Below, one piece after another: positions 1,780-19,641 of a DNA stretch of 22,760 nucleotides; the first letter of the stretch is position 1; each line of letters starts with the position of its first letter. The stretch comes from a virus. Below the pieces are notes generated by a model. It was not told where the DNA came from, did no database searches, and saw only the letters and a program-made list of their open reading frames with translations. Position numbers and translations under genes: made by a program. The DNA is taken from positions 1-22,760 of IMG/VR virus record IMGVR_UViG_3300026078_000092. One strand, written 5' to 3'.

Positions 1780-1888
1780 TGTTGGTTCCTTTGGTTGCAT
1801 CATCGTTATACAGGTCGAAGGGCTCGTCGTTGATGCAGGCAAATGCTACAGCAGCGACGAGCGCGACGGCAAGACAGACGAAGATCAT
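1766..1888 (-). CDS. Mini membrane protein next to endolysin, possible lysis partner
   Basis: A 40-residue product consisting of a hydrophobic segment at residues 2-17 (Ile/Val/Ala/Leu-rich) ending in Ala-Cys, then a polar Asp/Asn/Thr-rich tail. Start ATG 1888 overlaps the stop of the UvrD-like gene as ATGA and has AAGGCAGG just upstream; its end overlaps the endolysin start by 14 bases, which suggests translational coupling of all three. The Ala-Phe-Ala-Cys at the end of the hydrophobic stretch only loosely resembles a lipobox, so a small lipoprotein or a single-span membrane peptide are both possible. Location before a lysin is suggestive of a holin or spanin role, but no family is recognised. 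Confidence 0.6.
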   Translation of the reverse strand: MIFVCLAVALVAAVAFACINDEPFDLYNDDATKGTNNGNR

Positions 1889-3690
1889 TTGCCTGCCTTC
1901 GGTGGAGCATAGATGTGCTCGGGAACCATGATCAGTTCGCCGAGGGGACGTGTGCCGATCACGATCTCGATATTGCGCTCTGAGATCATTTCCCATTCTT
2001 TACGCTGCTGCCGGCGTCCCGTGCGCAGCCAGAACACACGAGGCCATTCGCGACCCTTCGCCTTGTGGCCCGTCGAGAGACGCACCATGTCAGTCACGTT
2101 GTCGGCGAAGAGCGCTTCGATCTCGGCGACGACATCAGAGATGAGCGTCTTGCCTAACGTCTCACAACGCTCGATGAAGATGCCCAGCGTCTCGACGCGA
2201 TCAGTAATCTCTTGCTCGCGCTTCTCGGAATTCTGCGCCCGCGCCTTCTCGACTTCACGTGCGAGGTACGTGGACAGGCGCTCCTTCAACGTCTTGATGT
2301 TGGTAATCTTCCAGAGACGTGCGAGCGCGATCAAGTTCTTCCCGAGATCGCGTCCCTCGACTTTGCACGCGATGCCATTCTTGATCATCGCATAAGCTGT
2401 CGCGATCAACGGCTTGGTGTAGCGGCACAAGATCGCGTCGTCGATGGAGGGGCGATCTTCTTGCATGAACCACGGCGTCTGAGGCTGCCCCTGAGCCGCT
2501 TTCACGAATGAGATGGGACGCACTGCTCCATCTGCTGCGCTTTCGTGTGCACGGATCGTGTACGTCGGGTCGATCTGTGTCTTGACGTATTCGACGACGG
2601 TCTTGGGGCAGCGATACGTGACGCTGAGCGACAGACGTTGGCAGTTGAACATCTTGGCTGTCACGTCGAGGCTGTCGTGCGCCGCTCCAGTGAAGCCGAA
2701 GATCGACTGGCGATCATCACCAACGAAGACAGCACGGCCGCCCGGACGCAGCATGCGACGTGCGATCTCGCGTCGAGCAGCGTTCGCATCTTGCCACTCG
2801 TCGCCGATCACCCAATCGTTCTGATAGAACTTGCAGCCGTAAGCAATCGGGGCATAGATCATGTCGTCGAAGTCGATCAACGTCTCACACTGCTTGCGCG
2901 AGCGCTCAAAGATGATCTGCGCCCAGGAGAGCGCTTCGTCGAGTTCGACTTCTTCGACGAGATCGGCGTCGGCACTGAAATGCTCAGCGAGCGCGCGCCA
3001 TTCGTCGAGACTGTTCACGTCAGGATACCCGGCGATGCCGAACAGAGCTTGGCGCGCATAGCTGACCATCTTCCCGATGAAGCCCAACGAGCGGTCAATC
3101 AGTTCGCGCTTCGCGTGCGTCTGCATGAAGTCTTTGATCAGGTTGAACACTTTGCGCTCGTCGATGGCGACATTCTTGAACGCTTGACGAAAGGCGCCGA
3201 GCCCCGCTGAGTGCATCGTCCCCATGCGAATGCCCTGCCGATCGACACGCGCTTTGCGCGCTTTCGTCTGGATGTCGGTCGCAGCATCTTTGCCGAACGC
3301 GCCGAAGAAGATGCTTCCCTGCATGTATTGCAGACCCTGCACGAGTGTCGTTGTCTTCCCGGACCCTGCGACAGCTTCGACGAGGGCTGAACCCTGTCCG
3401 CTCTTGATCCAGTCAAAGTATGCCTGCTGCTCGACAGATGGCTTGAAGACTGTCTCAGACGCTGCTTGAGCGGTCTTCTTCGCGAAGTATGCTTGCATCG
3501 CTGGAGAGACGACTGCGGCCGGCTTCGCTGCTTGCTTTTCGAGCAACGATGTCACGCTTAGGTTGATGCTGTCGAAAGGATGAGCGGGCTTTGGCTCAGC
3601 AGCGATGACCGGCCACACGATTGCAGGGGCCGGCTTGACAGTGCGCAGATGGGGCTTCTTCGAGACGAAGCGTGCTTTGAATTCGGTCAC
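1885..3690 (-). CDS. UvrD/Rep-like superfamily 1 DNA helicase (Dda-like role)
   Basis: A 601-residue ATP-dependent 3'-5' or Dda-type helicase. Motifs in order: Q-motif region (88-90), Walker A VAGSGKTTT (107-115), motif II DEWQD (297-301, usual DEFQD), motif III GDDRQSIFGFTGA (324-336), motif IV TYRCP (358-362), motif V GHKAKGREW (541-549) and a motif VI-like GTR (579-581) near the end. Residues 1-85 are an extra Pro/Ala/Lys-rich segment before the helicase core, containing FVSKK at 8-12, a peptide shared with other replication proteins in this window. The GTG start overlaps the upstream stop (GTGA) and has GGAGG 8 bases before it. Role by analogy: unwinding or clearing proteins from forks. 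Helicase identity is clear; the exact subfamily is not. Confidence 0.93.
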   Translation of the reverse strand: MTEFKARFVSKKPHLRTVKPAPAIVWPVIAAEPKPAHPFDSINLSVTSLLEKQAAKPAAVVSPAMQAYFAKKTAQAASETVFKPSVEQQAYFDWIKSGQGSALVEAVAGSGKTTTLVQGLQYMQGSIFFGAFGKDAATDIQTKARKARVDRQGIRMGTMHSAGLGAFRQAFKNVAIDERKVFNLIKDFMQTHAKRELIDRSLGFIGKMVSYARQALFGIAGYPDVNSLDEWRALAEHFSADADLVEEVELDEALSWAQIIFERSRKQCETLIDFDDMIYAPIAYGCKFYQNDWVIGDEWQDANAARREIARRMLRPGGRAVFVGDDRQSIFGFTGAAHDSLDVTAKMFNCQRLSLSVTYRCPKTVVEYVKTQIDPTYTIRAHESAADGAVRPISFVKAAQGQPQTPWFMQEDRPSIDDAILCRYTKPLIATAYAMIKNGIACKVEGRDLGKNLIALARLWKITNIKTLKERLSTYLAREVEKARAQNSEKREQEITDRVETLGIFIERCETLGKTLISDVVAEIEALFADNVTDMVRLSTGHKAKGREWPRVFWLRTGRRQQRKEWEMISERNIEIVIGTRPLGELIMVPEHIYAPPKAGK

Positions 3691-4360: not shown

Positions 4361-4582
4361 TTACAGGTCTGAAAGGTCGTCGAGGTTTTCGAGAGTGTCG
4401 AGGACTTCACTGAGCTTGTCGAGTCCGTCTTCAGTCGCACGTCCGCGGTCGCTCTCTTTGAAGGGCTCAGGCATCGCTTCGAAGTAATCGCCTTCTTCGT
4501 CGCGCGCTTGCTCAAGCATCGAGCGCGCTTCGTTGATCTGCTCCATCGCCTTCGCGATGAGTGCGCGGCGCTCTTTGTTCAC
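4361..4582 (-). CDS. Small acidic helical protein
   Basis: A 73-residue product with 21 Asp/Glu against 10 Lys/Arg, most acidic in its second half, and Leu residues spaced as in an amphipathic helix near the C-terminus (LDKLSEVLDTLENLDDL, 55-71). It starts with GTG at 4582, overlapping the upstream stop as GTGA, with GGAGG 8 bases before it. No family recognised. Small acidic phage proteins sometimes mimic DNA or block host proteins, but nothing here proves that. Confidence 0.75.
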   Translation of the reverse strand: MNKERRALIAKAMEQINEARSMLEQARDEEGDYFEAMPEPFKESDRGRATEDGLDKLSEVLDTLENLDDLSDL

Positions 4583-4842
4583 GGTGCTTTCCTCCGGGAG
4601 ACGAACTTTGCGGGGATCTCATACGGCGTCACGTCGCGGCACTTCTCGATGTTTTCGGGGAAGTCGAGCACTGCGAGCGCGTGTCCGTCACATTCGATCT
4701 CGTAGGCACGGTAGCCGACGCGCGCGACGATCTTGCCGGTGACGCCTCCAGGGACGAACTTCGCGAGGATTGGCGCGTCGATGAAGCGGACGTGACTACC
4801 GATGTGCAGACGTTCGGCGGTTTTGTGGCAGAGTGAGTACAT
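4579..4842 (-). CDS. Small hypothetical protein, SH3-like pattern, FVSRR at C-terminus
   Basis: An 87-residue product. Its middle (residues 15-55) alternates short hydrophobic strands with Gly turns (Ile-Gly-Ser-His-Val-Arg-Phe-Ile, later Val-Thr-Gly-Lys-Ile-Val), reminiscent of small SH3/KOW-type barrels, but this is only an impression. The last residues carry AKFVSRRK, the same short peptide type as in the SSB, recombinase, UvrD-like and UvsY-like proteins. ATG 4842 has AAGGAG 9 bases upstream; the longer frame to 4986 lacks such support. Unknown function. Confidence 0.72.
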   Translation of the reverse strand: MYSLCHKTAERLHIGSHVRFIDAPILAKFVPGGVTGKIVARVGYRAYEIECDGHALAVLDFPENIEKCRDVTPYEIPAKFVSRRKAP

Positions 4843-5187: not shown

Positions 5188-6753
5188 TCAGGAAAATAGC
5201 TCTTTGGCTGTCTTTTTTCCACCAGCCAGCAGACGTGTCAGCAAGTTCTGACCCTCCGCGATGAAGCCCAGAATACGGTCTTCGATCGGCGCGCACACGA
5301 GATCGTCGAGCGTGAGCGACCGTTCTCCGCGGGCCATGGGACGACTTGCTGCCTGCTCGCGCACGCGCGGATCGACGGGCGACTCGAAGAAGAGCAGATA
5401 TTCGGTCTCAGGCAGATTGATCCCCGTGCCGCCCTTCTGACTGTTAGCGATGAGGAACTGTGCCTTGCCAGAGCGGAACGCAGCTATCGCGCCATCCGGA
5501 TCCTTCGTGTCGCCGCGTAGCTCAGTATAAGTGACTTTCGCCTTTTGCAGCGTCTTCGCGATCAGTTCGCCAGAGTGAATGTATTCGTGGAAGATGAGAC
5601 AGGGGCAGTCTGCTGGTAGCTCAGAAACGAAAGCTGCGAGCCAGTCGAGCTTCGCACTGTCGAAGTGCACGACGCGTCCCTTGCCCTCTTCGTCACTGAA
5701 AGCCAAGTAACCCGTCGCGATTTGTCGCAGACGATGGAAGAGCGACTTCAATTCTACTTCGTCGTTGTCTCTGATCTTGTAAATCCGGTTGATCGCGTCG
5801 TCGTATGCTTTCGCTTGATCTGCGGTCATCTTCAGTCGGATGACGTTCGCCTCGACTGCTGCGGTCTTGACTTCGCCTTTACCGTATGCCAGCGAGAAGC
5901 TATCGAGCTTATACTGGAACAGATCCATCTTCTTCTTGTCGAAGACCCACATTCGATTGGTCGGCGTGAAGCGCGAATAAAGATTTTTGCCGAACGCTGC
6001 TTCGAAGAACGCGTAATTGTATCCAAAATGCTTGCCCTGATCGACGAGATGCGCTTGTGCCCAGATTACGTAGGGATCGCGTCCAACTGGGGTGCCTGTC
6101 AGTCCAAGACGACACTTGCACTGTGCAGTCAGTTCGCTTGCGAGCGCGAAGGGCAATCCGTATTCGCCGGAATAGAAGTGCGTCTCGTCGATCACGCAAT
6201 GGTCGAAGAACGCAGCAGCAGCGTCGAGCAGATCGCGCTCCGGATACAGCGTTGGCTTGTTTTTGCGATTGAGCCGCTTTTCAGTGAACAGTTCCTGCAT
6301 GGTGAAACGTGACAAGATGATCAGATCACAGTCACTTTCGCATGCGTCCATGAAGTCGTCTTCCATAGACGCTCCGCTTCGCACAGAGCGCGCGACGAGA
6401 TTTGAATGCTCAGCGACTTGTGCTTCCCATTCCGTCACACCAACCGTTGCGTGCGCCAGGATCAGTCCCTTCTGCTTGACGATCTGCGCGCGTCGCAGAT
6501 GCGCCGCCCAATCGAGTGCAATCTTTGTCTTGCCAAGTCGCATCCAATAGAACAGGAAAGCTTGTCGCATATAGAGTGCGAACGCTAAGCCTTCCAACTG
6601 ATGCGGGCGCGAGGGGGTCTTCTCTTCGAACTCGACGCCCGTGCAGTTGTAAATCATTGCGCGCAGATCGTCGGGATCCATGCCTTTGCACTCAGGCGGA
6701 TCTGCGTAAATTTTGCCGAGGAACTTGTCGATGGCGTCTTTACTGATTGGCAT
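5188..6753 (-). CDS. SNF2-type superfamily 2 helicase/ATPase (UvsW-like role)
   Basis: A 521-residue DNA-dependent ATPase. Motifs in order: motif I MRLGKTKIA (71-79, usual GLGKT with Arg for Gly), motif Ia region around HATVGVTEW (101-109), motif II DETH (189-192), motif III LGLTGTP (216-222), then in the second RecA-like lobe motif V ANSQKGGTGINL (436-447) and motif VI around QAASRPMARGE (467-477, usual Q-GR-HR-GQ). SNF2-like phage ATPases are thought to remodel branched DNA or replace T4 UvsW in recombination and replication restart; that role here is inferred. The start overlaps the methyltransferase stop (TGATG) without a strong SD, so translation is probably coupled. Confidence 0.92.
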   Translation of the reverse strand: MPISKDAIDKFLGKIYADPPECKGMDPDDLRAMIYNCTGVEFEEKTPSRPHQLEGLAFALYMRQAFLFYWMRLGKTKIALDWAAHLRRAQIVKQKGLILAHATVGVTEWEAQVAEHSNLVARSVRSGASMEDDFMDACESDCDLIILSRFTMQELFTEKRLNRKNKPTLYPERDLLDAAAAFFDHCVIDETHFYSGEYGLPFALASELTAQCKCRLGLTGTPVGRDPYVIWAQAHLVDQGKHFGYNYAFFEAAFGKNLYSRFTPTNRMWVFDKKKMDLFQYKLDSFSLAYGKGEVKTAAVEANVIRLKMTADQAKAYDDAINRIYKIRDNDEVELKSLFHRLRQIATGYLAFSDEEGKGRVVHFDSAKLDWLAAFVSELPADCPCLIFHEYIHSGELIAKTLQKAKVTYTELRGDTKDPDGAIAAFRSGKAQFLIANSQKGGTGINLPETEYLLFFESPVDPRVREQAASRPMARGERSLTLDDLVCAPIEDRILGFIAEGQNLLTRLLAGGKKTAKELFS

Positions 6754-7690: not shown

Positions 7691-9062
7691 CTAATCGTTC
7701 CACTTCCTGTTCAACGTGTTTTGCCATATACACGCTATCGATGGCAAATTGCCCTGTCATGAAATTTTGCGATACCATGGCGAGCCATTTGTCTTCGGCG
7801 TTGCGTGCTGCATCGACGAATATACGAGCGCGCCCTGCCTCGCGTTCCTGCTTTGTGCGCGAGATCGTGCAGACAGTATCAGCAGTCCCCGTCAAGCTGT
7901 AGTCTTCGCCGACGTGCATTGCGCCACTGACGACCTTAGCACTGTCGCCCGCTCTGTTGGAATGCGTCGTCGTGACAATCGCGATGTTGCGCGCGACAGC
8001 GACGCCGCGCAGCTTGATTGCGAGTTGCCCCAGATCAGTGCGTATCTTGTCGCTGTTGATCGACATGCGGTTGATGGAGTCAAGCACGATGAGATCGGGA
8101 CGAAAGTTCTCATTGCGCGCGAGTTGATCCAAATACGCTGTAAGCTGTGCAATGGTCAATGAGCCTGTCGGAAATTGCTTCATCAGCAAGCGCGATCTCG
8201 ACTTGAAGCCGCGCAGCTTCTTTGCGATGCGCGGCGCAGTCTCAGCCGTGATCCCTTCTGCAACGCGCTGATCGTAATCAATCGTCGTGAACCGGCCCAA
8301 CTGATCGCGCTTAAAGATAGGGTAACGCACAGTCTCAGTCTGCCCCGGCGTCATCGCGAACATCGCTTGGATATAGCGCTTCGCTGTAATCTCTTCGCTG
8401 TTCTCAAGCGTGATGTGCAGCACCTTCTTGCGTCGCTGGATATTCTGCTTGCCGATCTCGATGCCCCACCAGCTTTTACCGATCTTCTTCGCGCCGATGA
8501 TCAGGAACAACTCTCCGCGTGCGGGACGAATGCCGCGCACGTCGAGCGCTTCGATGCCCGACGTAAAGAAGTCGCTCTCTGGGACGTTCATCCATTTGAG
8601 CATCGCTTCTGCGTCGTGCAGCCAGATACCGGGTGACGATGCTTGCGCAACGTCACGTTGATACAACGCACGCTCTGCGCCCTCTAAGTCTCCCGCGCGC
8701 AGATGTTCGTCTGCTTCTTCGATAGCCTGCGCCAGTTTCCTTGACGCTATGAACTGCGCAAGCCCGTCGAGCACGTATTGCGCGTTTAAGTTCGGCAGCA
8801 GCGTATCCATGTCGTCGCAGTGCCGGGCATACATCTTGCCGTCGTCGTCGCCGCGATTGAGTTCCTTTTCGAGCAGATCGCGCATATGCACGCCCGGCGG
8901 CACACCATACACCGAGATGTAATCGGACGCGCGCTGCGCAATCGTGCGGTACTTAGGGGTCGAAAACAGATCAGGCGCAATGTGCGTCGTGATGTTCGCT
9001 GCATGCTCAGCACTGTGCACAAGCATCGTGAGGATGTTATCCTCGAGACTTCCCGTCAGCAT
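7671..9062 (-). CDS. DnaB-like replicative DNA helicase
   Basis: A 463-residue helicase of the DnaB/T4 gp41 type that would form a hexamer on the lagging strand template. The N-terminal domain (residues 1-120) has the usual helical DnaB pattern beginning SLEDNILTMLV and containing HIAPDLFSTPKYRTI. The RecA-fold core carries Walker A GAKKIGKS (190-197, Lys196), ITLENS (217-222), Walker B LIVLDSINR (324-332) and TTTHSNR (364-370). The start ATG 9062 has GGAGA 9 bases upstream in the recurring AACAACGGAGA leader. No primase gene is seen in the window. Confidence 0.93.
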   Translation of the reverse strand: MLTGSLEDNILTMLVHSAEHAANITTHIAPDLFSTPKYRTIAQRASDYISVYGVPPGVHMRDLLEKELNRGDDDGKMYARHCDDMDTLLPNLNAQYVLDGLAQFIASRKLAQAIEEADEHLRAGDLEGAERALYQRDVAQASSPGIWLHDAEAMLKWMNVPESDFFTSGIEALDVRGIRPARGELFLIIGAKKIGKSWWGIEIGKQNIQRRKKVLHITLENSEEITAKRYIQAMFAMTPGQTETVRYPIFKRDQLGRFTTIDYDQRVAEGITAETAPRIAKKLRGFKSRSRLLMKQFPTGSLTIAQLTAYLDQLARNENFRPDLIVLDSINRMSINSDKIRTDLGQLAIKLRGVAVARNIAIVTTTHSNRAGDSAKVVSGAMHVGEDYSLTGTADTVCTISRTKQEREAGRARIFVDAARNAEDKWLAMVSQNFMTGQFAIDSVYMAKHVEQEVERLDAENDD

Positions 9063-16346: not shown

Positions 16347-17321
16347 TCAGGCGTACTTTCGCATCGGCGGCTCAAGTGCGTCTTCGATCTCTTCCCAGCG
16401 TGCGATCACAGCCGAGCGCAGTTCGTCGCGCACAGCTTTGACAGCTTCGCGGTCTTTCGATCTGAACGCAGTTTCGACACGCTTTGGGTATGACTCCGCG
16501 GGCTCCGGCAACAAGTCTTCGCCTTTGTTGATCTTGAGCCAGTTGATCATCGAGACTTCATCCGCGACGCCATAGCTGAACAAGATCGTGAAATCGACTT
16601 GACGATACGGCTTCCCTGCCTTGTTCTTCTTGTTGCGTGCGCGCACTTCAACGCCGATTGTGCGCTCCACTTTCGTGACGATCTTCTTCAGTGACTTGAT
16701 CTGCGCGAGCCAGAAGACTTGTGTTGCGTAGAAGTCGAGCGCATGCCCGCCCGAGCGCTTCTTCGTCTCGCCAAATGTCACGCCGATGTTGTCGCGTATC
16801 TGCGAGATCACAATCAAGGTGCATTGCTTCTCGCGCAATTTCTTGACGAGCTTGCGGAACAGTTCTGAGAGACCTTTTGCCTTCTCTTGTCCATAACTGC
16901 CCGCGCCGACATCGCGCTTCATTTCTGCTTCGCTGGAGCACGCGTCGAGCGAGTCGAGAATGTACAGATTGGGCTCAGTCTGCTTGTCGAGCCATGCAGT
17001 AAGATCACGCTCGAAGTCTTCGATGGTGTGCACGTCTTCAGTGTATTGCGCACCTTTGGGCATGCCCATCGAATAGGCATATGTGCGATCAAACGCCGCT
17101 TCGATCTCAGCGTATCGGATCGACGCAGCTTTGTATTGCACAGCAAAGTTGGCGCACGCTTCGATTGCGAGCAGTGTCTTGCCTGTCGATTTGTCGCCGA
17201 CGATATTGACGACAGCACCGATGCTCCATCCGCCACCCGCTGCTAAGTCAATCAACGTGCTGCCTGATGAGAAGAACTTGGGCGCTTCGGGTGCTCCGCG
17301 CTTACTTGCAAACTTTGCCAC
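16347..17321 (-). CDS. RecA/UvsX-type strand-exchange recombinase
   Basis: A 324-residue RecA-fold recombinase that would form filaments on single-stranded DNA and pair homologous strands. Walker A GDKSTGKT is at 42-49, Walker B LYILDSLDA at about 119-127, then VISQIRDNIGVTFG and GGHALDFYATQVFWL, matching the RecA L1/L2 and the ALKFYAS-like region. The GTG at 17321 has AGGAG 8 bases upstream; the frame to 17357 lacks support and would include the folded leader. The N-terminus carries AKFASKR (2-8), part of a peptide shared with the SSB, UvsY-like and UvrD-like proteins. The C-terminus is helical and charged. Confidence 0.94.
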   Translation of the reverse strand: MAKFASKRGAPEAPKFFSSGSTLIDLAAGGGWSIGAVVNIVGDKSTGKTLLAIEACANFAVQYKAASIRYAEIEAAFDRTYAYSMGMPKGAQYTEDVHTIEDFERDLTAWLDKQTEPNLYILDSLDACSSEAEMKRDVGAGSYGQEKAKGLSELFRKLVKKLREKQCTLIVISQIRDNIGVTFGETKKRSGGHALDFYATQVFWLAQIKSLKKIVTKVERTIGVEVRARNKKNKAGKPYRQVDFTILFSYGVADEVSMINWLKINKGEDLLPEPAESYPKRVETAFRSKDREAVKAVRDELRSAVIARWEEIEDALEPPMRKYA

Positions 17322-17344
17322 GTTTCCCGCTCCTAATGAAAGGT

Positions 17345-17440
17345 GCCGGACTTCCACCGGCTTGTCATGCGGGGTGAGCTTTCTCGCATGATCTGCTCTT
17401 CCGACCTGGGGGCCGATCAGAAGAACTACTCGGGCCAGGT
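17345..17440 (-). promoter_or_regulatory. Three-hairpin leader upstream of the recombinase gene
   Basis: Three inverted repeats follow each other between a small gene and the recombinase. H1: 17404-17409 with 17435-17440 plus inner 17413-17416 with 17430-17433, its loop holding the stop codon of the upstream gene. H2: 17365-17371 with 17385-17391, 7 base pairs, 13-base loop. H3: 17345-17349 with 17357-17361, 5 base pairs, 7-base loop. None has a T run. Part of the H2 loop (GCTC on the minus strand) could pair with GAGC overlapping the recombinase SD. This looks like an RNA control element or processing site. I do not recognise a known riboswitch class. Confidence 0.55.
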
Positions 17441-17605
17441 GTTGTTCACGTCATGAATGAGCAACTTTTCAGCTTCTTCCTGGACTTTCTTGATCATCTC
17501 CCAAGCGCCGCTGCCGCTCCCGACGCCATCTGCTGCTGCCTCGAGTGATGCAACAGCAGTCGCGAGATGACAGGTTGTCGCGGGATCGCAGATACCTGTT
17601 GCCAT
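17426..17605 (-). CDS. Small hypothetical protein between SSB and recombinase
   Basis: A 59-residue product: an Ala/Thr/Cys-containing first half with a Gly-Ser-Gly-Ser turn (residues 31-35) and a helical charged C-terminus with Lys and Glu. No family recognised. ATG 17605 has AAGGAG 8 bases upstream; ATG 17614 has no fitting SD. It begins 12 bases after the SSB stop and its own stop lies in the first hairpin of the recombinase leader. Confidence 0.7.
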   Translation of the reverse strand: MATGICDPATTCHLATAVASLEAAADGVGSGSGAWEMIKKVQEEAEKLLIHDVNNTWPE

Positions 17606-17617
17606 AGCACGCACTCC

Positions 17618-18535
17618 TTATTTGTTGGCAGCTTTGCGTGCTGCGAGCTTTGCGCGCAGTTCGTCTGCCTTCGACATGCCAGACGCTGCGGCGGCTGCTG
17701 CTGGCGGTGCTTTAGCCGGCGCAGCTTCTTCCTGCTCTTCCTGCTGCTCCTCGTCTGCGACCGGCTCAGGCTCGCGCACGGCTGCCTTCTTCGAGACGAA
17801 CTTCGCAGGCTGCTCGTCAGCAACAGGCTTCTTCTCTTCTTCGTCTTCGCCCTTGTTGTCTGCGCCCTCGAAGAGTGCTTTCACTTCTTCATAGGTGCGA
17901 TGTACGAATGTCGTCGGCACAGGATGCGCAACGACGTATTCGAGCCAGCTTTCTTCGATGGCTGAGGGTTTGCGCGAAGTCTGGAAGCCACTGTAACGCG
18001 TTGTCGTCTGCGTCGTGCCCTCACGCTGAAAGCTGACGTTATATCCTTCTTCGGGATTGTCGATCTGAAGCAGTTCGCCGCTCTCGCGATCCCGCGTGAG
18101 CTTGATGAAGTCGCTGTCCATGCGAAAGCCGATCGACCAGAGCATTGGGCCCGCTGCTGTGTCGCGCATGTTCATCACCCACGAGACGACTTGCAGTCGC
18201 GGTGCGAGTTCTTTCGCCGCTTCCTCGTCCCCTGCTTTGCGTGCAGCGTCGCGTGCTTCGCAGATGGGGCAACGCTTGTTCTCCATCTTGCTCAGGCACA
18301 GCACGCTTGCGCGATCAGGTCCGACGCCGTAGTGGACGTGCACTTCATAGCCCCAGTGCTCAGCGTCGTCCCACGTCGGCGGCAGGAAGCGAATGAAGTT
18401 GTCGCCGACAGCCGGCTTGAAGGTTTTGTAATCGTCATGCAGAAAGCCCTGGAAGCTGCCTCCGGTACGATTGAGACGCTTTTCGACCTGTTCTGGCGTG
18501 CGGGCCTTGTACTTGAACTTACTGGCGAGTGCCAC
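17618..18535 (-). CDS. gp32-like single-stranded DNA binding protein
   Basis: A 305-residue SSB of the T4 gp32 type. The N-terminus (KFKYKARTPEQVEKRLN, 6-22) resembles the basic cooperativity segment of gp32, followed by DNFIRFLPP (45-53). A zinc signature His68-X11-Cys80-X8-Cys89-X2-Cys92 is close to the His-X12-Cys-X9-Cys-X2-Cys of T4 gp32. From about residue 225 the protein becomes acidic and low in complexity with poly-Ala, interrupted by AKFVSKK (244-250), and ends in a basic helix (288-305). T4 gp32 ends acidic, so the basic end is unusual. It starts with GTG; AGGAG lies 7 bases before. The start overlaps a small membrane-protein gene. Confidence 0.88.
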   Translation of the reverse strand: MALASKFKYKARTPEQVEKRLNRTGGSFQGFLHDDYKTFKPAVGDNFIRFLPPTWDDAEHWGYEVHVHYGVGPDRASVLCLSKMENKRCPICEARDAARKAGDEEAAKELAPRLQVVSWVMNMRDTAAGPMLWSIGFRMDSDFIKLTRDRESGELLQIDNPEEGYNVSFQREGTTQTTTRYSGFQTSRKPSAIEESWLEYVVAHPVPTTFVHRTYEEVKALFEGADNKGEDEEEKKPVADEQPAKFVSKKAAVREPEPVADEEQQEEQEEAAPAKAPPAAAAAASGMSKADELRAKLAARKAANK

Positions 18536-18674
18536 GTTTAGTCTCCTGTTTGGTTGTGTTGACCTGCTTTAATGACGCTGCGAAGCCCAGTCCGAAAATG
18601 CGTCCACACAGATATACGACAAACGCAGCAACAGGCAAGGCTACCAGAGCGCCTAGGATGTAACTAAGCTCCAT
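18519..18674 (-). CDS. Tiny membrane protein overlapping the SSB start
   Basis: A 51-residue product with one hydrophobic segment (residues 4-23, Ile/Leu/Ala/Val-rich), a Gly/Phe-rich second patch (25-34) and a basic polar tail (Lys-Gln-Val-Asn then Lys-Gln-Glu-Thr-Lys-Arg). ATG 18674 lies 2 bases after the NDK stop with GAGGAG about 5-6 bases upstream. The gene overlaps the SSB start by 17 bases in another frame, and the SSB SD lies inside it. No family recognised; the coding call rests on start context and hydrophobic pattern. Confidence 0.6.
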   Translation of the reverse strand: MELSYILGALVALPVAAFVVYLCGRIFGLGFAASLKQVNTTKQETKRGTRQ

Positions 18675-18676
18675 CC

Positions 18677-19156
18677 TTACTCCTCTGTTTTGGGGCCAAT
18701 AGCAACCCCAGCCACTCCTCCCACGTCCACGATCATCTTATACCAAACTCGATGACCGAAGATCAGTTTGATTTCCCGCGCAGCATTTTCTGCGCTATCT
18801 GAGCCATGCACGACGTTATGCGCGAGCACGGTTTCATCTGCCGCGAGCGTGCGCAGCGTGCCAGCTGCTGCTTTGCGCGGATCAGTCGCGCCCATCAGAG
18901 CGCGCCAGCTTTCGACAGCGTTGTCCTTCAACAGCACGAGTGCGATCACGTGTCCCGATACTGAGCGCGCGAGATCGTCCCAATATGGTCTGCCGAGGTG
19001 CTCATGGTAGAAGTCTTCGACGATCTCGGGCGCGAGTTTGCACCACTGCGCGCGATAGATCGTGAAGCCGGCTTCGAGAATGCGAGCGAGCACGATTGGA
19101 TGCAGATTGCGTCGAATAGCTTTTGACTTGATCAGTGCGAAAGTAAATTGGGTCAC
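18677..19156 (-). CDS. ndk: Nucleoside diphosphate kinase
   Basis: A 159-residue enzyme that transfers phosphate from NTPs to NDPs through a phosphohistidine. The family landmarks are all present: FALIKS (6-11, Lys10), FYHEH (49-53), LLKDNAVESWRALMGATDP (75-93), GTLRTL (99-104) and HNVVHGSDSAENA (113-125) with catalytic His117. The usual FALIKP is FALIKS here. It is rather divergent but should be active. GTG start overlaps the UvsY-like stop as GTGA, with GGAA nearby. It would complete dNTP supply with ThyX and the DUF3310 protein. Confidence 0.93.
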   Translation of the reverse strand: MTQFTFALIKSKAIRRNLHPIVLARILEAGFTIYRAQWCKLAPEIVEDFYHEHLGRPYWDDLARSVSGHVIALVLLKDNAVESWRALMGATDPRKAAAGTLRTLAADETVLAHNVVHGSDSAENAAREIKLIFGHRVWYKMIVDVGGVAGVAIGPKTEE

Positions 19157-19641
19157 GAGGTTTTCCGTTTGCTGAGAAACTGTTGCGGGGTCGGGCCGGC
19201 GTCACGTGCTGCTTGCAACTCCTGCTTGCGATTTGTATTTGGTGCAAGCCAGCCCGCGACCGTCAGTTCTGATATATGCTTCAACGAGCTTCCCTTCGCG
19301 CGGTAGCTCTCAGCGAGGCCCTGCCAATAGCGCAGATCATGCTCCGCTTCGGCGAGCGCTTCTGTCGCAAGCAGGACTTTCGCATCGAGCAGCGACAGCG
19401 AGTTGAGCTTCGTTTCAGAGGGCAGCTTGCCATCTTTGTCGGGCACGCGCAGACGCTCCGCTGCTTCTGCGACTTCGACCTTGAGCAGCATTGCTGCTGT
19501 GTCGCGCACTTGCATCACGTCGGCTGTGAATTCGATCACAGTCTGGATGCGCGAGGGGTGCTCGATGAACTCTGTCTCGAGGTCCATCATGTCGATGCGC
19601 AAGTGCGCTTTCGCAATGTTGTATTCCTTTTCCATATACAT
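19153..19641 (-). CDS. UvsY-like putative recombination mediator
   Basis: A 162-residue helical protein. Its C-terminal part reads L-x-YW-x-x-L...AKG-x-x-LKHI-x-E-L (103-126), which lines up with the end of T4 UvsY (L-x-YW-x-x-L...SRG-x-x-IKHI-x-D-M) as I recall it; the preceding helices (residues 34-65 and 82-102) are also compatible. UvsY loads the UvsX recombinase onto gp32-covered DNA. Here the gene sits two genes upstream of the gp32-like SSB and four upstream of the recombinase, which fits. The extreme C-terminus has FLSKRK (155-160), the shared peptide. The start at 19641 overlaps the cupin-like stop; ATG 19635 is possible. The assignment is by pattern and context, not proven. Confidence 0.6.
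   Translation of the reverse strand: MYMEKEYNIAKAHLRIDMMDLETEFIEHPSRIQTVIEFTADVMQVRDTAAMLLKVEVAEAAERLRVPDKDGKLPSETKLNSLSLLDAKVLLATEALAEAEHDLRYWQGLAESYRAKGSSLKHISELTVAGWLAPNTNRKQELQAARDAGPTPQQFLSKRKTS

Follow-up and report, generated by a model that had tools for sequence, protein, structure and literature searches.

The handover of single-stranded DNA (ssDNA) among the ssDNA-binding protein (SSB), the mediator and the recombinase is a long-standing question, for which phage T4 supplies only some of the contacts. In E. coli RecA the docking residue is Ile26, which by our own count on the known sequence lies 15 residues before the core signature, and BRC4 is the BRC repeat that copies this RecA-family residue. 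During RecA-family polymerisation an N-terminal hydrophobic residue docks in the neighbouring core, as is also seen for human Rad51 and a BRCA2 BRC repeat (PMC2672939). UvsX without its N-terminal residues lacks the protein-association domain (PMC3016280), and the N-terminus of T4 gp32 binds the adjacent gp32 core (PMC11551737).

Here we analysed the IMG/VR virus record IMGVR_UViG_3300026078_000092, whose 22,760 bases are called the window and whose genes lie nearly all on the minus strand. The peptide F-[VAL]-S-[KR]-[KR] is present in exactly five of the 35 window proteins, namely the recombinase, the SSB, a UvsY-like protein, a UvrD-like helicase and an 87-aa protein. All copies are encoded on the minus strand: AKFASKR at recombinase residues 2-8 (17298..17318, next to the GTG start at 17321), AKFVSKK at residues 244-250 of the SSB linker (17786..17806), FLSKRK at residues 155-160 of the UvsY-like C-terminus (19162..19179), ARFVSKK at residues 6-12 of the helicase N-terminus (3655..3675) and AKFVSRRK at residues 78-85 of the 87-aa protein C-terminus (4588..4611). 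The initial annotation had reported these five peptides and their absence from every other window protein, and both statements were confirmed, with F.S[KR][KR] giving five matches and no sixth protein among the 35 minus-strand genes (7,111 aa). An extra match at 8179-8193 runs antisense within a helicase and is presumably due to chance. Residue shuffles of the window proteins (2,000) contained on average 0.216 matches with a maximum of 3. In 433,745 aa of proteins predicted at other loci there were 7 matches, equivalent to 0.11 in the window. Both figures overstate the surprise because the motif was defined after the sequence had been read. In a less biased test with the 87-aa peptide as the query, the other four proteins ranked 1-4 among 266 six-frame ORFs. 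A search of the open-access literature, with most subscription journals outside its reach, returned no description of such a shared peptide.

Every carrier that can be assigned to a family acts on ssDNA or in recombination. The recombinase (324 aa, GTG start, 16347..17321, minus strand) belongs to the RecA/UvsX type by both fold and family profile (PF00154, E 1e-33; phrog_97, UvsX-like, E 3e-46). The SSB (305 aa, 17618..18535, minus strand) has the gp32 core fold, as Foldseek matched it to the RB69/T4 gp32 core (2a1k, 8gme and 1gpc, E 2e-7 to 5e-7), and it matches phrog_1192 (SSB, E 6e-15); its Pfam gp32 score is under the curated cut-off. In the AlphaFold models the cores of both proteins exceed a pLDDT of 90, and the recombinase has a mean of 90.6. 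In contrast, its first ten residues average 51, with the peptide at about 50, and the SSB linker reaches 45-60 overall and 53-60 at residues 241-260, where its peptide lies. The recombinase and SSB peptides thus lie in low-confidence stretches that are presumably disordered, in line with the earlier proposal that the copies occupy disordered ends or linkers; being disordered, they give no docking information in these single-chain models. Moreover, the SSB ends in a predicted helix (model residues 289-304; 17624..17671, minus strand), SKADELRAKLAARKAA, that shows a related pattern, R-x-[KR]-hydrophobic. R-x-[KR]-[LIF] was found in 39 of 66 SSB C-termini (15.8 expected from shuffling), and SSBs of this phage group often have a predicted terminal helix with it. 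This pattern, which resembles the shared peptides, may be a further copy.

The 162-aa UvsY-like protein adjoins the SSB (19153..19641, minus strand), and its orthologues lie upstream of the SSB in many loci. It is without a Pfam match, Pfam UvsY was unmatched by 15 homologues, and PDB profiles likewise gave no UvsY match. A profile comparison with hhalign gave a marginal hit, to the C-terminal region of T4 UvsY (P 0.003, probability 11%, 45 columns). The name UvsY-like, used in the initial annotation, therefore stands on the place beside the SSB and the weak T4 profile match, and not on a Pfam family. A nucleoside diphosphate kinase gene (18677-19156, minus strand; PF00334, E 1e-35) lies near the UvsY-like and SSB genes of the window; in the relative L003, the stretch between these two genes contains no gene of comparable length.

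The helicase (601 aa, 1885..3690, minus strand) is of the UvrD/Rep-type SF1 class with an N-terminal tail (PF00580, E 7e-19; phrog_1967, E 1e-79). Its core is about 50% identical among orthologues, whereas the tail of about 80 residues is not. The tail occurs mainly in the close clade, other homologues mostly starting at the motor domain; beyond that clade it is mostly short or absent and so unusable for comparison. The 87-aa protein (4579..4842, minus strand) has no family match in Pfam or among cultured phages, and has an orthologue in the relative G002 (39% identity, E 2e-9).

The closest relative found, L003, has an SSB 71% identical to that of the window and three of the five carrier genes. 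An orthologue alignment, proposed earlier as a check, showed that the peptide is kept in all three orthologues while flanking residues change. At the same residues of the recombinase start, L003 has MARFVSKK and the window VAKFASKR; the SSB linkers read PKFISKLKK and KFVSKKAA, and the UvsY-like ends QQFVSKKKG and QQFLSKRKTS, respectively. The Ser codon is AGY in the recombinase and UvsY-like genes and TCN in the SSB gene, identically per gene in the window and L003. Since AGY and TCN cannot be interconverted by one silent change, the copies are old and kept by their protein sequence. Judged from these codons, the copies are not the product of recent DNA copying.

That the copies arose by chance, from composition or through duplication of a short repeat at the DNA level is, in our assessment, highly improbable. 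The SSB and UvrD-like genes do have 15 identical bases in common (TTCGTCTCGAAGAAG), and the long, charged and repetitive SSB tails make weak matches easy. However, five matches stand against 0.22 expected, the trend recurs in a second set of loci, the genes do not all use the same Ser codon family and each retains its own in L003, and copies in G002 differ in their synonymous codons. The earlier reading is partly supported: a selected docking peptide on disordered ends gains from its retention in L003, from the helicase tail and from the shared peptides that several relatives have of their own, and the common partner is putative.

More distant loci were fetched from viral contigs (80 recombinase, 80 UvrD-like and 80 SSB); the UvrD protein alone found nothing in the viral contig search, and an alignment query was required. 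None of the four relatives that have the helicase gene (G002, G003, G006 and G040) retains the exact window peptide, and in three of them (G002, G003 and G040) a different peptide is common to several proteins of the same genome. G003 has RARFKPRG at the UvsY-like end, RERFRPRG in the SSB linker and KPRFRIRG in the helicase, and in a six-frame translation of its 68-kb record [KR]F[KR].[KR]G, a pattern written post hoc, matched only the UvrD-like, UvsY-like and SSB proteins. G040 has PLKQRGSRRNG in the UvsY-like protein and PLKQRGARAR in the SSB, with LRFRGKR in the helicase tail. In G002, three proteins share PRGRFA[YNH][KR]: the helicase (QPRGRFAYK), the orthologue of the 87-aa protein (APRGRFANR), which ends RPKLAPRGRFANRNKE, and a 163-aa protein (RPRGRFAHK). 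The latter, a family-less protein encoded between the UvrD-like and 87-aa orthologues (5796-6287, minus strand, locus L092), ends RPRGRFAHKDAPT. These PRGRFA copies use different synonymous codons, and the ARAQIQ of the G002 recombinase resembles the ARAKIQ of the G002 SSB. In G006 the helicase N-terminus reads ARRHID, and the motif is lost from the G045 helicase. The G006 and G045 peptides (ERRVV, ARRPI, TRRAV and ARRHI) are alike by eye, and a strict rank test in these two genomes did not single out the partners (not significant).

Because the 87-aa protein and the helicase have a peptide in common in the window, their orthologues were looked for in relatives. There the pair again has a common peptide, though another one, so that the prediction for the 87-aa protein and the helicase N-tail came true. 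The initial annotation had regarded conserved domains without the peptide as evidence against its reading. In distant relatives such orthologues were found as far as the exact letters are concerned, but another shared peptide often stands there instead.

This replacement raises the possibility, which we put forward with less than even confidence, of a private plug-and-socket code in a large uncultured phage group, in which one pocket and a drifting peptide would persist with all carriers re-tuning in step. Such a code, if true, would make the recombination machineries of related phages mutually incompatible, and it would clearly exemplify a single linear motif that changes in a co-ordinated way in several genes. 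The shared peptide may also act as a barrier to the mixing of recombination modules between phages, and a partner-marking peptide that changes in step would supply natural matched and mismatched peptide sets for finding the shared receptor.

The same relatives bear on a sliding clamp as the common partner, a suggestion of the initial annotation. APIM, found in PCNA partners, has the consensus [KR]-[FYW]-[LIVA]-[LIVA]-[KR], and the window form [KR]-F-[VA]-S-[KR] resembles it; as with APIM, PIP and clamp motifs, one short motif recurs on many DNA-metabolism proteins. APIM peptides bind the bacterial beta-clamp (PMC7261172), and the window and every one of the 15 relatives searched have a clamp-loader gene. 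However, position 4 is Ser in the window and Tyr, Asn or His in G002, not aliphatic, so the APIM consensus is not matched, and lineages with PLKQRG or ARRPI are unlike APIM. Furthermore, no polymerase copy was found: the pattern in the 68-kb G003 record falls on the UvrD-like, UvsY-like and SSB proteins only. Because no polymerase carries the peptide in G003, the clamp suggestion is weakened, and we consider it very unlikely.

The resemblance of tails within genomes was evaluated across loci. In a first set, the recombinase, SSB and UvsY-like tails compared within a genome exceeded residue shuffles with z values of 5.0, 4.1 and 3.2 (N 65, 47 and 47). Comparison with wrong-genome pairings gave 50, 0 and 1 of 5,000 permutations, and permutations within similar G+C gave 150, 0 and 132 of 5,000. 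After removal of the window, L003 and a further six cases that were strong or of low complexity, the counts were 471, 13 and 823 of 5,000, and the UvsY-like/SSB pairing therefore loses support. A second set of 41-45 loci, mostly new contigs but including the already inspected G040 and G045 and hence not a wholly blind repeat, gave z values of 2.3, 3.2 and 3.4 and 243, 129 and 29 of 5,000 permutations. The statistics of both sets ignore relatedness among genomes. Across 47-65 loci, tails of the same genome resemble each other above shuffles and mostly above wrong-genome pairings, with the second set weaker.

A looser pattern, [KR].[KR][ILV], was found in 37 of 71 recombinase N-tails (10 expected) and 51 of 66 SSB tails (22 expected), with modest enrichment in UvsY-like tails (17 of 50, 9 expected). 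This enrichment, and the strongly basic character of every copy with its one hydrophobic residue, would suit a basic-aromatic tail that binds DNA or pairs with charge, in the manner of KARL or with the acidic SSB tail, and that has no specific pocket. The K-A-R-L of T4 UvsY fits the loose pattern and is assigned to ssDNA binding (PMC3016280). T4 gp32 LAST and T4 UvsY KARL are likewise short basic motifs on the same set of proteins; the LAST consensus is matched only at the window UvsY-like C-terminus (KRKTS), where L003 has KKKG. Against a merely basic tail, the exact residue order and the aromatic are common within a genome and beat composition shuffles, and nonspecific binding leaves unexplained why KFVSKK runs throughout one genome and RF[KR]PRG throughout another. 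We regard this explanation as quite unlikely.

Taken together, the copies read as a rapidly drifting docking peptide common to the presynaptic, or filament-assembly, machinery: recombinase, SSB, mediator-like protein, SF1 helicase and small accessory protein. It is plausible, if short of probable, that all five represent a single docking peptide, displayed on disordered ends, with its pocket at the recombinase protomer interface. The recombinase N-terminal peptide would dock on the core of the next protomer. Its copies on the SSB and the mediator would mimic it in the manner of BRC repeats, so that recombinase is recruited and loaded on SSB-coated DNA, and through its own copy the helicase would be directed to filaments in need of clearance. 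All copies would fit a single phage-encoded pocket, and when the pocket changes all copies would change along with it. F4 of the window and L003 recombinases precedes the S-[ST]-G-S signature by 14 residues. This spacing, close to the 15 of Ile26, the role of the carriers in assembling or clearing the filament and the lack of the protein-association domain in N-terminally shortened UvsX (PMC3016280) favour the recombinase pocket.

The arrangement is comparable to RAD51 FxxA and BRCA2 BRC in that a peptide of the recombinase N-terminal linker recurs in mediators, as proposed here, with a hydrophobic residue similarly spaced from the core signature. Unlike those peptides, the copies lack F-x-x-A (the window has F-[VAL]-S-[KR]) and sit in a basic K/R context, they are replaced wholesale between related phages, they occur also on the SSB and a helicase, and their receptor is one that we only infer. 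Several observations count against the recombinase pocket. In other lineages the peptide and the signature are separated by anything between about 10 and 19 residues, which does not resemble a polymerisation strand of fixed position, and many distant recombinase homologues carry, closer to the core, a distinct YFx[SAG] element that may be the real polymerisation motif. The rank-test outcome in G006 and G045 and the motif loss in the G045 helicase also count against it, and the SSB, with copies usual in its linker, could equally be the receptor. One alignment suggested that F-[AV]-S of the window recombinase may be homologous to YF[AV]S of distant RecA proteins; against this, YFxS is absent from G002, G003 and G040, where the N-terminus is still of the R-x-[KRQ]-hydrophobic form. 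In most distant recombinases (e.g. L004, L035 and L068) YF-x-[SAG] lies about 10-13 residues before the signature, and in the window clade it is missing or altered. The recombinase pocket is, on our analysis, to be treated as a lead and not a result.

The main rival, ahead of KARL-type DNA binding and the clamp, keeps the same peptide and places the pocket on the gp32-type SSB core. The linker copy would occupy this pocket, either in cis or on an adjacent SSB, and the recombinase, mediator, helicase and small protein would displace the linker to load on SSB-coated DNA. The linker usually bears copies, sometimes many, where data for the trio exist, and with the UvsY-like C-terminus as the query the SSB ranked 1 or 2 in the window, G003 and G040. 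Binding of the T4 gp32 N-terminus to the adjacent core (PMC11551737) is a precedent. However, the peptides show no family-wide likeness to the SSB N-terminal cooperativity peptide (z -1.8, -1.2 and -0.9), T4 UvsX and UvsY bind the gp32 tail and not its core (PMC3016280), and the linker is predicted to be disordered with no sign of docking (pLDDT 45-60). We consider an SSB pocket doubtful. Mimicry of the SSB N-terminal cooperativity peptide was also tried and rejected: KFKYKARTPE and KFASKRGAPE of the window are alike, and the likeness fails across 47-66 genomes.

As in the SSB-Ct hub, the acidic tip of bacterial SSB, and in the T4 gp32 A-domain, a disordered SSB tail would organise recombination and replication partners. 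In those systems the SSB tail is the ligand and the pockets lie on the partners, whereas here the same basic peptide is found on the SSB and its partners. The SSB tails of L052 and L083 contain many near-identical basic-hydrophobic units between acidic runs (e.g. KPVRRKAAVVEDDEEEEE and EKPRRR). Elsewhere in the window, positions 1234-1842 of the minus strand encode an endolysin-like protein (Glyco_hydro_108, E 1.5e-10).
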